Both the position numbers and the translations under genes were made by a program. The notes under the pieces were generated by a model. The model was given only the letters and a program-made list of their open reading frames with translations. It had not been told where the DNA came from and did no database searches. Positions 3,003-62,117 of a stretch of 64,000 nt of DNA are shown here, in pieces (the first letter of the stretch is position 1; the number at the start of each line of letters is the position of its first letter). Origin of the DNA: Rhodothermales bacterium (GTDB taxonomy: Bacteria > Bacteroidota > Rhodothermia > Rhodothermales > VXPQ01); contig OX638293.1 of the NCBI GenBank assembly GCA_951812335.1, positions 1,658,731-1,722,730 of the forward strand, written 5' to 3'.

Positions 3003-3107
3003 GCATTGGACTGGCACAGGGGGAATGTGTGCCGTGGCGAACAAGGCGTACTGCGAAACGTTAAGAAGCGATCTGTCCGCTTGCTCGCATGACTTGCGTT
3101 TTGTAAA

Positions 3108-3360
3108 GGATACTCTGATTAATTCTGCAAAGTTCAGAGGCTTCGAGAAGCGCGCTGGCAAGGAATGACGAAGCAATGTGGCAGGCCCCACATAATGAGG
3201 AATGACACAGCCAGCGCGCTTCTCGAAGCCTACCGAAGGGCGCTTCATGTACGCCATGCACCGAATCACAGCGTTTTTCGCTGATTTCAACGACATCGTC
3301 ATGATGTCCTGTGCGCACAAACATGAAGCGCTGATCGAAGTAGAATTAATCAGAGTATCC
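3108..3360 (-). repeat. Palindromic intergenic element, copy 1 (full, modules A+B)
   Basis: This 253-bp element fills most of the 388-bp gap between rluD and hisS. Its ends are near-perfect inverted repeats (GGATACTCTGATTAATTCT at the left, its complement at the right). It is flanked by the direct repeat TAAA (3104-3107 and 3361-3364). Module A is a hairpin with 20-bp perfect arms at 3139-3158 and 3211-3230, enclosing a smaller stem at 3176-3193. Module B has arms at 3240-3250 and 3321-3331. It is oriented opposite to the flanking genes, unlike the other copies. The rest of the gap shows nothing recognisable. Its end lies 30 bp before the hisS start. Confidence 0.9.
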
Positions 3361-3390
3361 TAAACACTTCATATTCTCTGCGCATTTTCT

Positions 3391-12623: not shown

Positions 12624-12795
12624 GGATACCCTGATTAAGCCCGCAAAGCTCAGAGGCTGCGAGGGGTGCGCCGGCAAGAAATGGCGAAGCAGTGTGGCAG
12701 GCCCCATACAATGAGGAATGACGCGGCCAGCGTGCCCCTCGCAGCTTTCCGAAGGGCACGTCACGTTCTTGATACCCCGAATCTGCAGAGTATCC
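12624..12795 (-). repeat. Palindromic intergenic element, copy 2 (module A; B truncated)
   Basis: A 172-bp copy lies between proC (stop at 12800) and hisH (start at 12622), in the orientation of those genes. Ends are GGATACCCTGATTAAG on the hisH side and a diverged GGATACTCTGCAG on the proC side. It keeps hairpin module A, with arms around GGCTGCGAGGGG and CCCCTCGCAGC and the internal GTGTGGCAGG stretch. Only one arm of module B remains. The flanks read TATG and CATG on the minus strand, a 3-of-4 match. It occupies nearly the entire intergenic space. Confidence 0.85.
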
Positions 12796-24241: not shown

Positions 24242-25654
24242 GTGAAATACGATGTCGTCGTTATCGGGTCGGGGCCAGGCGGCTATGAGACCGCCATCCG
24301 CGGATCCCAGCTCGGACTCAAGGTCGCCATTGTCGAAAAAGACAAGTTGGGCGGCGTGTGCCTGAACATCGGTTGTATACCGACCAAGGCACTGCTCAAG
24401 AGTGCGGAAGTCATGGAAGAAACGCGCCATTTGTCCGATTACGGCCTGCGCCTTGACGGCAATATTGCGCCGGATTTTGCCAAAATTGTCGAGCGAAGTC
24501 GTGGTGTGGCCGGCAAGATGAACAAGGGCGTCGGCTTCCTGATGAAAAAGAACAAGATTGACGTGCTCTACGGCAGAGCGCGCCTTGCAGGGAGGGGCAA
24601 GCTGTCCATCGAGCCGTCTGTCAACATGGACGGGGATCGCATCGGCAACACAGGAATCGTCGAGGCCGACCATATCGTTATCGCCACGGGTGCGCGGGCG
24701 CGAGAAATTCCTCCTCTTCCCGTAGATGGCGAAAAAATCATCACATACCGGGAGGCCATGCTTCAAAAGAAGCCGCCGAAGCGGCTGGTTGTTTGCGGCG
24801 CAGGAGCGATCGGTGTGGAATTCGCCTATTTCTACAATCAGATGGACGCCGAGGTCACCATTGTCGAACTACTCGACCGTCTCGTCCCTGTGGAAGATAT
24901 CGAAATTTCCAAGGCGCTCCAGCGGGCGTTCGGCAAACAGGGTATCCGGTGCCTGATGTCCGCGGAGGTGCAATCTGTCGATACCCGTGGACAATCCCTC
25001 GCCGTAAATGTCAAAACCGGTAAGGGAGCAGAGGCGATTCCATGCGATCAGGTGCTTTCCGCGGTGGGCGTTCGGGGCAATATCGAAGATATTGGATTGG
25101 AAAAATTGGGCGTCAAAACCGAGCCTGGGCGCATTGTTGTGGACGAGTACTACCGTACGAACATCCCCGGCGTGTATGCCATCGGCGATGTTGCGGGCGG
25201 TCCCTGGCTGGCCCACAAGGCCAGTCACGAAGGGGTTCTCTGCGTAGAACACATCGCGGGGGAATCGGTCCATCCGATGAATTATGACAACATCCCGGGC
25301 TGCACGTATTGTCAGCCGCAAATTGCGTCGGTAGGCTACACCGAGGAAAAGGCCAGGGAGGCAGGCTTCGATGTCCAGGTCGGGAAGTTTCCTTTCTCCG
25401 CGTCGGGCAAGGCCGCCGCGCTTGGCGATACGGAAGGATTCGTTAAAGTCGTCTATGATGCGAAGTATGGAGAATGGCTTGGATGCCACATTATAGGACG
25501 CGACGCTACCGAACTGATTGCGGAAGCCGTTACGGCTCGCGCCCTGGAAACGACGGCGCATGAGATTGCCGAAGCAATGCACCCGCACCCTACGCTCTCC
25601 GAATCTCTCATGGAAGCCACCCGTGCCGCATTGGGCAAGGCAATTAATATTTGA
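24242..25654 (+). CDS. lpdA: Dihydrolipoyl dehydrogenase
   Basis: This is the E3 flavoprotein of 2-oxoacid dehydrogenase and glycine cleavage complexes, which reoxidises dihydrolipoamide with NAD. At 470 residues it has the usual length. The FAD-binding motif is VVVIGSGPGGYETAIRGSQLG, and the redox disulfide is GGVCLNIGCIPTKALLKSAE. The NAD-binding motif is VVCGAGAIGVEFAYFYNQ. The second FAD motif is GVYAIGDVAGGPWLAHKA, and the C-terminal His-Glu catalytic region is AMHPHPTLSESLMEA. The start is GTG at 24242. Its TGA stop lies within the 4-bp direct repeat flanking repeat copy 3. Confidence 0.96.
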   Translation: MKYDVVVIGSGPGGYETAIRGSQLGLKVAIVEKDKLGGVCLNIGCIPTKALLKSAEVMEETRHLSDYGLRLDGNIAPDFAKIVERSRGVAGKMNKGVGFLMKKNKIDVLYGRARLAGRGKLSIEPSVNMDGDRIGNTGIVEADHIVIATGARAREIPPLPVDGEKIITYREAMLQKKPPKRLVVCGAGAIGVEFAYFYNQMDAEVTIVELLDRLVPVEDIEISKALQRAFGKQGIRCLMSAEVQSVDTRGQSLAVNVKTGKGAEAIPCDQVLSAVGVRGNIEDIGLEKLGVKTEPGRIVVDEYYRTNIPGVYAIGDVAGGPWLAHKASHEGVLCVEHIAGESVHPMNYDNIPGCTYCQPQIASVGYTEEKAREAGFDVQVGKFPFSASGKAAALGDTEGFVKVVYDAKYGEWLGCHIIGRDATELIAEAVTARALETTAHEIAEAMHPHPTLSESLMEATRAALGKAINI

Positions 25655-25655
25655 A

Positions 25656-25810
25656 GGATACTCTGATCAAAACCGCTTTGCTCAGGGCGTCACGTTCGAA
25701 AGTACAGGACATCATGATTCCATCGTCGAAATCAGGGGAAGCACTGCGAATTCAGGGCGTCGCGGACGTGACACGCCCTTTGGGAGGCTGCGGACTTAAT
25801 CAGAGTATCC
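25656..25810 (+). repeat. Palindromic intergenic element, copy 3 (module B only)
   Basis: A 155-bp copy immediately after lpdA. Ends are GGATACTCTGATCAAAACCG and CGGACTTAATCAGAGTATCC. It is flanked by exact direct repeats TGAA (25652-25655 and 25811-25814); the first contains the lpdA stop codon. Module B is present (arms around GGGCGTCACGTTCG and GGACGTGACACGCCC). Module A is cleanly missing: GGGAGGCT joins directly to GCGGACTTAATC. The right end is 3 nt before the ATG of the YdeI-like pseudogene. Confidence 0.9.
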
Positions 25811-25813
25811 TGA

Positions 25814-26050
25814 ATGGATATTTCTTCCAACTTCTGTCACCCGGCCACTCGATAGGAATGGCGCGCCTGGCTTGCCGAAAACCATGCGCGCAAGGAAGGA
25901 GTCTGGCTGATCCGCTACAAAAAGGCTACGGGCAAGCCATATGTCGGATACCATGCTTCGGTGGAGGAAGAAATAGCCGATTTGCGTTCGCTTCCGACGC
26001 AAACGAAGCGTGCGGCGTTGCCGATGTATCGCCTGATGGAAGGGGAGTAG
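25814..26050 (+). pseudogene. Broken YdeI/OmpD-associated-like gene
   Basis: From the ATG at 25814 the frame reads 13 codons and meets an amber stop (25853-25855). It then continues in the same frame as EWRAWLAENHARKEGVWLIR followed by YKKATGKPYVGYHASVEEE. That matches the N-terminal region of YdeI/OmpD-associated family proteins. After this it jumps to a short basic tail (TQTKRAALPMYRLMEGE) and stops, lacking most of the normal ~190-residue protein, including the FGWID region. One nonsense mutation plus an internal deletion is the simplest reading. Repeat copy 3 abuts its start codon. Confidence 0.65.
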
Positions 26051-29853: not shown

Positions 29854-30107
29854 GGATACTCTGACCAAAACCGCTTCGCTCAGCGCTTCACGTTCGCAAC
29901 GCCCCGAATTCGCATATTTCCCGCTGATTCCGATGATAAAATCATGATATCCTGTACTTGCGAACGTGAAGCGCCCTTCGGGAGGCAGAGAGGAGCACGC
30001 TGGCCGTGTCATTCCTCATTATGTGGGGCCTGCCACATTGCTTCGTCATTCCTTGCCAGCGCACCCCTTTCAGCCTCTGAATCTTTGCGGATTTAATCAG
30101 AGTATCC
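29854..30107 (+). repeat. Palindromic intergenic element, copy 4 (full, modules A+B)
   Basis: A 254-bp full copy between the HNH gene and the small membrane protein. Ends are GGATACTCTGACCAAAACCG and GCGGATTTAATCAGAGTATCC with a slightly imperfect match. Module B has perfect 17-bp arms at 29883-29899 and 29958-29974, the longest B stem in the window. Module A has more mismatched arms (GGCAGAGAGGAGCACGCTGG against CCAGCGCACCCCTTTCAGCC). The flanks TTAA and TTGG match at 2 of 4 positions only. Its right end lies 43 bp before the next start codon. Confidence 0.9.
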
Positions 30108-34503: not shown

Positions 34504-34660
34504 GGATACTCTGATTAAGTCCGCAACCCTCCCGCAGGGCGCGTCACGTCCGTGACGCCGTGAATTCGCAGTGCTTTTTGCCGATTTCAACGATGAAACC
34601 ATGATGTTCTGTACGCAAGAACGTGATGCGCTGAGCGAAGCGGTTTTGATCAGAATATCC
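34504..34660 (-). repeat. Palindromic intergenic element, copy 5 (module B only)
   Basis: A 157-bp copy filling the space between the arginine deiminase-family gene (stop at 34662) and the glycosyltransferase (GTG start at 34498), oriented with them. Ends are GGATACTCTGATTAAGTCCG and TTGATCAGAATATCC, with one mismatch in the terminal 10 bases. Module A is absent. Module B remains (GCGTCACGT against ACGTGATGCG). The 4-bp flanks do not match (TAAG and CTGA on the minus strand). Confidence 0.88.
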
Positions 34661-42265: not shown

Positions 42266-43120
42266 ATGGCGCGCATAGGTTCCTACGAATTGCATACGAT
42301 CGAGGCGGGTCGATTCGGCCTGGACGGCGGCGCCATGTTCGGTGTGGCGCCGCGTGCGCTGTGGGAGCGTCATATTCGGCCGGACGATAAAAACCGAATC
42401 CCTCTTGCCCTGCGTTGTCTGCTTCTCGAGGGGGACGGGCGCGTTATTCTCATCGACAACGGCATCGGCGCCAAGGGCAGCGAGAAGTTCGCAAGCATCT
42501 ATGCCATCGATTATGCCCATACGGAGTTGCACAGGTCGCTTGATCAGGCGGGTTTCTGTGCGGAGGATGTGACGGATGTCGTGTATACCCACCTGCATTT
42601 CGATCATTGCGGCGGCGGCACCGCAATAGGCCGGAACGGGCCGGTCCCGGTTTTCGAAAATGCGCGGTATCACGTGCAGCGCGCACACTGGGAGTGGGCG
42701 CTCCACCCGAACGTACGCGAAGCCGCGTCATTTATAAGAGAAAATATGGAACCGCTCGAGCGTGCCGGGCAATTGAATCTGGTAGACGGACCGCGTACGC
42801 TTTTTCCCGGGGTCGAGGCGATCGTTGTGCATGGCCATACGGAAGCGCAGCAACTGGTGAAAATATCCGACGAAGAGCGCACGCTCGTTTTCGTGTCGGA
42901 TCTCTTGCCTACAACGGCCCATTTGAGGGGGGCCTGGGCTACGGCGTACGATGTGCGCCCACTTGTGACGCTGGAAGAGAAGGCACGTTTTCTCGAAGAT
43001 GCGGTCGAGGGAGGATGGCACTTTTTTTTCGAACACGATCCGGTGACGGTTGTGGGTACGCCTGTGCGTATGCCCCGGGGCATTGCTGTTGCAGAGGAGC
43101 GTTCCCTCGATGAACTATAG
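42266..43120 (+). CDS. Metallo-beta-lactamase-fold hydrolase
   Basis: A 284-residue MBL-fold protein. The zinc-binding motif THLHFDHCGGG (HxHxDH) is intact. Further ligands are in VVHGHTEAQQ, VFVSDLLPT and FFFEHDP. It resembles the quorum-quenching/alkylsulfatase-like branch that acts on esters or lactones, but the substrate is unknown. I start it at 42266 (MARIGSYELHTIEAG), where similarity begins; an ATG at 42212 is in frame. The stop codon TAG shares its last base with the first base of repeat copy 6. Confidence 0.86.
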   Translation: MARIGSYELHTIEAGRFGLDGGAMFGVAPRALWERHIRPDDKNRIPLALRCLLLEGDGRVILIDNGIGAKGSEKFASIYAIDYAHTELHRSLDQAGFCAEDVTDVVYTHLHFDHCGGGTAIGRNGPVPVFENARYHVQRAHWEWALHPNVREAASFIRENMEPLERAGQLNLVDGPRTLFPGVEAIVVHGHTEAQQLVKISDEERTLVFVSDLLPTTAHLRGAWATAYDVRPLVTLEEKARFLEDAVEGGWHFFFEHDPVTVVGTPVRMPRGIAVAEERSLDEL

Positions 43121-43156
43121 GATACTCTGAACTTCGCGGACTTAATCGCAGTATCC
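43120..43156 (+). repeat. Palindromic intergenic element, copy 6 (minimal, no modules)
   Basis: A 37-bp derivative beginning inside the stop codon of the MBL-fold gene. It retains only GGATACTCTGA, then CTTCGCGGACTTAATC, then GCAGTATCC. Both hairpin modules are missing. The flanks TATA and TGTA match at 3 of 4 positions. It is oriented like copies 3, 4, 8 and 9. Confidence 0.75.
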
Positions 43157-48767: not shown

Positions 48768-48783
48768 GGATACTCTGATTAAG
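48768..48783 (+). repeat. Isolated terminal repeat of the palindromic element family
   Basis: GGATACTCTGATTAAG directly follows the porV stop codon and matches the element end for 16 bases. No hairpin module and no partner end lie within 300 bp. The next GCATCC, 30 bp on, is too short to be meaningful. It could be a deletion remnant, or one boundary of a larger unit ending at 51949. Confidence 0.6.
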
Positions 48784-59983: not shown

Positions 59984-60048
59984 CCCTGTTCCGGTCGCAC
60001 GTTTCTTATACGTTGTATCTGTTGTCGTATGGCGCATGACGTAGCTAT

Positions 60049-60294
60049 GGATGCTCTGATCAAGTCCACTTCGATCAGCGCTTCACTTTCGGACGATATG
60101 CTTGCATCGTCGGAATCAGCGAAAAACACGGCGGATTCGCGTCGTCTCGACCGTGAAGCGCCCTTCGGGAGGCAGACAGAGACGCGCTGGCTGTGTCATT
60201 CCTCATTATGTGGGGCCTACCACATTGCTTCGTCATTCCTTGCCAGCGCGTCCCTTTCAGCCTCTGAATCTTTGCGGACTTAATCAGAGCATCC
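60049..60294 (+). repeat. Palindromic intergenic element, copy 9 (full, modules A+B)
   Basis: A 246-bp full copy just before mutL. Ends carry another paired change: GGATGCTCTGATCAAG at the left and CTTAATCAGAGCATCC at the right. Exact flanking direct repeats CTAT lie at 60045-60048 and 60295-60298; the right one includes the first two bases of the mutL ATG. Module B arms are GCGCTTCAC and GTGAAGCGC. Module A arms are GACGCGCTGG type, with the conserved TGTGGGGCC core. The right end is 2 nt before the start codon. Confidence 0.92.
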
Positions 60295-60296
60295 CT

Positions 60297-62117
60297 ATGG
60301 ATATCGAAGGAAGCATCCGGGTAATGCCGGAGGCGCTTTCCAATAAGATTGCTGCCGGAGAAGTGGTGCAACGCCCGGCTTCGGCGGTGAAGGAATTGCT
60401 GGAAAACGCGGTGGATGCCGGCGCCGGGTCCGTTACGCTGATCCTGAAGAGGGCGGGCACGGAATTGATCCAGATCGTGGATGACGGTTGCGGTATGAGC
60501 CGGGAAGATGCGGCCGCATGCTTTCGGCGGCACGCCACGAGCAAACTCTTTGTCGCCGAAGATCTGAACTGTATTAGCACCCTCGGTTTTCGGGGTGAGG
60601 CTCTTGCATCGATCGCGGCGGTGGCGCAGGTCGAGTTACGCACGAAACGGGCTGTCGACGGCGCCGGGCTCTGTATCCGTAACGAGGGAGGACGTATCGT
60701 TTCTTCAGAGCCATGCGCTACGAGCGATGGCACGTCGCTGGCCGTGCGCAATCTGTTTTACAACGTGCCTGCCCGGCGAAATTTTCTGAAAACCCCGGCC
60801 ACCGAACTCCGTCATATCATAGAGACATTCCAGGCGCTTGCACTGTCTCGTCCCGACATTGCTTTTACGCTCATCCACGACGATGCGGAAATGCATCGAC
60901 TTCCCGCCGAAACCGGGGAGCCTGCCGAGGCGCTCCGCCCCCGCATCGGGGCGTTGTTCGGCGACCAGTACCCCGATATGCTCGTTCCTGTGAGGGAGCA
61001 GACGAGCTACCTGACCGTGCACGGGTTTGTCGGTATGCCCGAATTGCACAAGAAACATCGTAGTGAGCAGTTCTTGTTTGTCAACGGGCGCATTGTGAAG
61101 AGCCGTTCGCTGGGACATGCAATTCAATCGGCCTACGAGGGGCTCGTGCCTAAAGGGACCTGGCCGTTTTTCTGCGTTTTCCTGTCGATGGATCCGTCCC
61201 GCGTCGATGTCAATGTGCATCCGGCAAAGGCCGAAGTGCGATTCGACGACGATCGGGGCGTCTACGGATTTCTCCATGCGGTTGTACAGAAAGGGCTCGG
61301 CGCCATGTTATTGACGCCACTCGTCGATGCGCCCTCTGCCGATACGACCGAACCCTGGGTGCTGAAGTCGCCTGCGAGGGAATTTACCGTTCCCGGAACA
61401 ACCCACTCGGCAAGTGCTTCCGAATTTTCTTCCGATGCGTCTTCGGCAGGGTATTACCGGAAGGACGAACAACGGGATGCAGGCCGGCAGTCCGAGGAAT
61501 TGTATCGCGGCGTGGCGTCCTTGTCGATCCCGGATGCGGCGTCCGGGAACGAGGATATGCTCCTCTGGCAGCTTCACGATCGCTACATTCTCACGCAGAT
61601 CCAGTCGGGCCTGATGATCATTGACCAGCATGCCGCGCACGAGCGTATTCTGTACGAGCGGGCGCTTGGTCATCTCCGGCAGGGACAGGGGCTATCTCAA
61701 CAATTGCTGTTTGCCCGCACCGTAGATTTTTCTCCCGCGGATTTCGAGTTGCTCAAGGAATTGCTGCCGGATCTGAGCGCCCTCGGGTTCGACATAGAGC
61801 TGCTCAGCGGGCGGACGGCCGTCGTGCGGGGCGTGCCGTCGGAAATACATTCCGGGGACAAGGAGGTCCTGCTGGAAGACCTGCTGGCTCAATATCGGCG
61901 CGACAACGAGCAAGCCGGGGCGGAGCGTCAGGAGCGCCTTGCGAGGAGTCTGGCCCGGCGCGGCGCCATCCGGTCCGGCGCCGTGCTTGTGCCTGCAGAG
62001 ATGCGATCCGTTATCGACCAGCTCTTCGCATGCGACAAACCCTATGTATGTCCGAGGGGACGCGCCACAGTGGTTCGGATCCCCATTGACGAGTTGCAGA
62101 AGCGCTTCGGTCACTGA
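60297..62117 (+). CDS. mutL: DNA mismatch repair protein MutL
   Basis: MutL couples mismatch recognition by MutS to strand removal. The 606-residue protein has the GHKL ATPase domain with NKIAAGEVVQRPASAVKELL, DDGCGMSREDAAACF, HATSKLF and TLGFRGEALASIAAVAQ. The C-terminal domain has the endonuclease motif DQHAAHERILYERAL. The usual zinc motif CPHGRP reads CPRGRA, and the helix normally carrying ACHSSIK reads ARRGAIRSG, so the metal site is altered. Relatives in this group also vary there. The start is ATG 60297; an in-frame upstream extension would translate repeat copy 9 and is rejected. Confidence 0.95.
   Translation: MDIEGSIRVMPEALSNKIAAGEVVQRPASAVKELLENAVDAGAGSVTLILKRAGTELIQIVDDGCGMSREDAAACFRRHATSKLFVAEDLNCISTLGFRGEALASIAAVAQVELRTKRAVDGAGLCIRNEGGRIVSSEPCATSDGTSLAVRNLFYNVPARRNFLKTPATELRHIIETFQALALSRPDIAFTLIHDDAEMHRLPAETGEPAEALRPRIGALFGDQYPDMLVPVREQTSYLTVHGFVGMPELHKKHRSEQFLFVNGRIVKSRSLGHAIQSAYEGLVPKGTWPFFCVFLSMDPSRVDVNVHPAKAEVRFDDDRGVYGFLHAVVQKGLGAMLLTPLVDAPSADTTEPWVLKSPAREFTVPGTTHSASASEFSSDASSAGYYRKDEQRDAGRQSEELYRGVASLSIPDAASGNEDMLLWQLHDRYILTQIQSGLMIIDQHAAHERILYERALGHLRQGQGLSQQLLFARTVDFSPADFELLKELLPDLSALGFDIELLSGRTAVVRGVPSEIHSGDKEVLLEDLLAQYRRDNEQAGAERQERLARSLARRGAIRSGAVLVPAEMRSVIDQLFACDKPYVCPRGRATVVRIPIDELQKRFGH

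Follow-up and report, generated by a model that had tools for sequence, protein, structure and literature searches.

An apparently orphaned IS5-group MITE family in one genus of uncultivated Rhodothermales

Described relatives and the repeat family

MITE families that are multi-copy and vary in size have been described from many bacteria (PMC10969869). The Correia element of Neisseria and Chunjie of Geobacter, for example, are multi-copy intergenic MITEs of ~180–235 bp, and Chunjie also has deleted size variants (PMC10969869). Within the Bacteroidota, BrickBuilt and MITE464 of Porphyromonas gingivalis have terminal inverted repeats of the IS5-family type and no internal transposase remnant, and both occupied and unoccupied sites, with a 4-bp duplication, have been reported for them (PMC4596501). 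For IS5 itself, the duplicated motif has been published as YTAR (PMC10359306).

We analysed a 64,000-nt stretch (the window) of a single-contig genome of 2.69 Mb. A repeat family comparable to these elements is represented in the window by eight copies or remnants with both ends and by one solitary end. We consider it very probable that these repeats are a non-autonomous transposon family, i.e., a MITE, which would have been moved in trans by an IS5-group transposase. BrickBuilt and MITE464 differ from it in having ~10–20 copies, as against ~150 here, and inverted repeats of the GAGACC type, and BrickBuilt contains a minisatellite and has duplications of variable length (PMC4596501). The Correia element and Chunjie have other ends, and are likened to the present family by description, not by sequence (PMC10969869). 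None of the sources that we searched describes this family, although its kind is already known.

The full-length element is ~254 bp long (full copies, 252–257 bp) and has near-perfect terminal inverted repeats that start with GGATACTCTGATYAA at both ends, with a terminal stem that is 98.8% paired. Its ends are of two types, GATTAAGTC and GATCAA. Shorter copies of 155–190 bp lack one hairpin wholly or partly, such as hairpin A (element positions ~27–128), and remnants of 14–37 bp retain both ends. As in other MITEs, the copies are short and numerous, with neither coding content nor a transposase gene. The copies in the window and the duplications at the site first noticed are as follows.

3108–3360, plus strand: full-length MITE with TAAA at 3104–3107 and 3361–3364; site empty in G003
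12624–12795, plus strand: deleted MITE copy of 172 bp, flanks CATG/CATA; site empty in G001, G002 and G003, with GGTATCC (7 bp) in G004
25652–25655, no strand: left 4-bp target duplication TGAA, whose TGA is the stop codon of the dihydrolipoyl dehydrogenase gene upstream
25656–25810, minus strand: the 155-bp MITE copy of the earlier note, hairpin A missing; site empty in G003 and G005
25811–25814, no strand: right 4-bp target duplication TGAA, which pairs with that at 25652–25655
29854–30107, minus strand: full-length MITE with a decayed duplication, TTAA/TTGG; common to G004, site empty in G003 and G005
34504–34660, plus strand: 157-bp MITE copy lacking hairpin A and a visible duplication; common to G004, site empty in G003 and G005
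43120–43156, minus strand: 37-bp MITE remnant with both ends kept, flanks TATA/TGTA; its first G completes the TAG stop of the upstream ORF
48768–48782, plus strand: solitary MITE end, immediately 3' of a stop codon
56212–56465, minus strand: full-length MITE, flanks ATGG/CTAT; common to G004, site empty in G003, diverged copy in G005
60049–60294, minus strand: 246-bp MITE copy with CTAT at 60045–60048 and 60295–60298; a single CCAT, CCGT or TCAT at the empty site in G001–G005

The end motif GGATACTCTG has 151 forward and 156 reverse exact matches in the genome, whereas its reversed control has 2 and 1, and there are ~150 MITE copies per genome. The copy at 3108, which is 100% identical to the one at the same site in the sister genome G004, belongs to a young subfamily of 9 copies that are 93–99% identical. 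The family is present in all six genomes of one genus of uncultivated Rhodothermales, and was not found in ~140 further genomes from the same order and class, save two single matches. A contig binned as Candidatus Latescibacterota (L143, JAGWBX010000099.1) also carries a MITE end; since its flanks match the MITE genus at 90%, it is probably misbinned.

The copies are intergenic and often adjoin stop codons. Neighbouring genes have their 3' end within 10 bp of a MITE in 23 of 88 cases and their 5' end in 6 of 79, and in the window the MITE ends at 25652, 29849, 43118, 48765, 56203 and 60044 coincide with a stop codon or lie no more than 10 bp from one. This proximity would be accounted for by a TTAA-like target combined with the loss of insertions that fall within genes. 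Elsewhere, the copies at L047 (1501–1754) and L044 (1501–1753) are centred in longer palindromes (GCGCCGGTAAA / TTTACCGGCGC and GCGGCGTTTAA / TTAAACGCCGC), which are perhaps transcription terminators.

Target duplications and empty sites

The earlier note had read exact 4-bp duplications at the copies at 3108 (TAAA), 25656 (TGAA) and 60049 (CTAT), and agreement at three of four positions at those at 12624 (CATG/CATA) and 43120 (TATA/TGTA), and both readings were correct. Since the flanks of the copies at 29854, 34504 and 56212 agree at two positions at most, the duplication is exact in three of the eight two-ended copies of the window. The suggestion drawn from these duplications, past transposition with duplication of 4 bp, was borne out by genome-wide flank statistics and by empty sites. 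Among 85 copies in this genome, 24 have exact 4-mers on both sides compared with 4.9 expected in partner shuffles (maximum of 500 shuffles, 11), and the mean 4-bp flank identity is 0.682 compared with 0.469 (z 10.1). Exact duplications were found at 13 of 60 copies in G004 (4.2 expected, z 6.5), and in a set of 131 copies drawn from several genomes 4-bp identity reaches 0.643 as against 0.452 in shuffled partners (z 11.9), an excess confined to the diagonal of a 4-bp duplication. When duplication lengths of 2–12 bp were compared, those of 5 bp or more gave no signal beyond isolated cases. The targets have the consensus TTAA, and 10 of the 30 exact duplications conform to the strict YTAR motif of IS5; this limited fit counts against an IS5-group driver.

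The comparison with close relatives that the earlier note had proposed revealed, in genomes of the same genus, a single copy of the 4-mer where this genome has an element. The site of the copy at 3108 has one TAAA in G003, that of the copy at 25656 has one TGAA in both G003 and G005, and exact empty sites were also found for two copies outside the window (TGCA and ATAT). At other sites, short remnants were observed, each still flanked by both duplications. G004 carries GGTATCC at the 12624 site and, at the 43120 site, TGTA-GGATCGGCGTATCC-TGTA with the remnant between both duplications (G004 loci L155 and L158), and at the L036 site a G005-type record (L124) reads TGTA-T-TGTA, with a single T between the duplications. 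Such remnants would be explicable by excision, or equally by palindrome-driven deletion.

Predicted fold and conservation between species

The family might be, or might have become, a functional RNA-bearing element that is kept by selection and would nonetheless have spread by IS5-type transposition, a reading that we regard as possible but unlikely. The element is predicted to fold into a terminal stem and two arms. In an alignment of 47 copies (A2), 97.8% of the cells at its 65 stem pairs form a pair and 18 pairs show two-sided compensatory changes, with a covariation score that none of the 500 shuffles and none of the slid controls reaches, which speaks for this reading; self-templated repair of palindromes could, alternatively, be the source of the covariation. 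The consensus fold has −75.2 kcal/mol on the strand that begins with GATTAAGTC and −26.5 kcal/mol on the other, and among variants in at least three copies, helix mismatch positions included, GU outnumbers AC by 19 to 4 (p 0.003), whereas singletons are even (15 vs. 21). This strand signal, which comes from related copies and from helices first predicted on that same strand, suggests that the folding of one strand has mattered. Hairpin A contains two nearly invariant GGAATGAC repeats, which could form tandem G-A pairs.

Against an RNA kept by selection, Rfam gave no match for the element or for hairpin A, and the orientation of copies relative to host transcription is unbiased (43 same, 56 opposite, p 0.23). 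Nor are convergent genes in excess around the copies (13 of 77, compared with 70 of 353 background pairs), and a terminator role was rejected on this count. Hairpin A was not found outside the genus (103 genomes).

The same reading draws on the divergence of orthologous copies, 0.9% as against 6–7% in their flanks. Between this genome and G004, 13 same-site copies, picked by intact ends and with decayed copies under-represented, differ by ~1% (29 of 2951 positions in the first 12 pairs), whereas their 400-bp flanks differ by ~6.5%. The element is more conserved than its flanks in every one of the 13 pairs, and divergence changes abruptly at the edge of the element. Orthologous MITEs are 97–100% identical and their flanks mostly 89–97% (window copies at 3108, 29854, 34504 and 56212; L031/L155, L280/L257 and others). 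In the window, divergence between this genome (G000) and G004 amounts to 6.4, 4.0 and 15.8% at codon positions 1, 2 and 3 and to 9.85% in other intergenic DNA, compared with 8 of 918 positions in four MITE copies. One pair from G003 and G005 is in agreement (98.4% in the element vs. 93.5%), and the comparison of G001 with G002 yielded only one shared site.

Other aspects of the divergence weigh against selection for an RNA. Two sites shared with G005 have no conservation excess, and may be separate insertions. Differences between orthologs avoid invariant columns (3 of 28, though 31% of columns are invariant), but this bias is below the prediction of strict constraint, and under proportional constraint one would expect them to cluster in variable columns more than was observed. 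It is doubtful, taking both sides, that the transposon-derived copies function as structured RNA, or as a strand-specific hairpin, and are individually preserved better than neighbouring protein-coding DNA. Within-genome gene conversion is disfavoured as the cause of the identity in several pairs, because the best paralogs are only 85–92% identical. Constraint, element-limited exchange and assembly effects are candidate causes. The conservation of orthologous copies is unexpected, and it counts against the MITE reading as well, since inert MITE relics would be expected to diverge more.

The IS5-group partner

For the preferred reading, a MITE moved in trans by an IS5-group transposase, a candidate partner can be named. 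The earlier note had suspected a link to the IS5 group, and the guess is supported by the ends found in G004 and G076, by matches to NCBIfam NF033581 and by the lack of any PF13701 match in the genus. In G004, three decayed IS5-group transposase genes (L165, L168 and L171) lie within GGATACTCTGATCAATCCGG / GGATACTCTGAT ends, the same GGATACTCTGAT ends as those of the MITE; one is truncated, one is frameshifted and deleted, and L171 is a 666-bp deleted IS that keeps both ends. The search for an autonomous IS, which the earlier note had proposed for this genome, led to these decayed genes in G004 and not to the window genome, which has no IS5-group (NF033581) transposase and whose sole DDE_Tnp_1 gene belongs to another group. 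An intact autonomous copy with exact GGATACTCTG ends (GGATACTCTGATTAAGTC) was not found in the genomes searched.

A protein search of 392 relatives retrieved an intact 328-aa transposase gene in G029 and, in G076, a genome of another genus of the order, several copies. One IS of G076, 1169 bp long, is bounded by GGATAGTCTGATTAAGTC and GGAAGGTCTGATCAATCC and has CTAA on both sides as an exact duplication. Its ends are nearly identical to those of the MITE, both end types included. G076 has no similar MITE expansion, with only 5 end matches. Matches to NF033581 reach 1.8e-100 (G029 protein), 1.5e-38 (G004 fragment) and 1.3e-109 (E. coli InsH); the DDE residues of these transposases align with those of InsH, to which the G029 protein is 47% identical. 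Of 19 positions, the left end of IS5A (GGAAGGTGCGAACAAGTCC) and the MITE end agree at 12, AAGTCC among them, and both begin with GG. The likeness to E. coli IS5 comprises an NF033581 transposase, GG ends, the AAGTCC subterminal motif and a 4-bp duplication, but the transposase belongs to the partner IS and not to the MITE, which has no gene, 7 of 19 end positions differ, and the targets are looser than YTAR. Because the MITE and the IS have only ~15–18 bp in common, the MITE is not a plain internal deletion of the known IS; like the lack of an intact copy with exact ends, this counts against the preferred reading.

A transposase of the IS1380/piggyBac type favours TTAA and makes 4-bp duplications, as is seen in the target consensus here, but this driver was rejected and is highly improbable, as none of the six genomes of the genus has a match to PF13701 (DDE_Tnp_1_4) and the gene inside the matching ends is of the IS5 group. 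The least credible driver is another IS5-family element of this genome (L069, ~1444–2301; ends GGGCGTGTTAACACT; transposase in two overlapping frames), which has the sole DDE_Tnp_1 match of the genome but was likewise rejected, since GG is all that its ends have in common with the MITE, its group differs (NF033580) and it sits inserted in a MITE end itself.

Mobilization of the MITE by the IS5-group transposase is what we infer from this comparison. In the proposed mechanism, the ~254-bp noncoding element would insert at TTAA-like 4-bp targets and duplicate them, after an IS5-group DDE transposase had recognized the ends common to IS and MITE and moved the latter in trans. The driving IS would now be left only as decayed copies in the sister species and be gone from this genome. 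We call the family an orphaned IS5-group MITE, judging from sequence, because the window genome lacks a matching IS5-group transposase and the sister genome has decayed copies.

Taken together, the ends, the duplications and the empty sites, along with an IS5-group partner in decay, tie a MITE to its likely driver in an uncultivated lineage. In addition, its orthologous and presumably inert copies diverge several-fold less than their surroundings, and provide a test set for function, unusual exchange or artefact.
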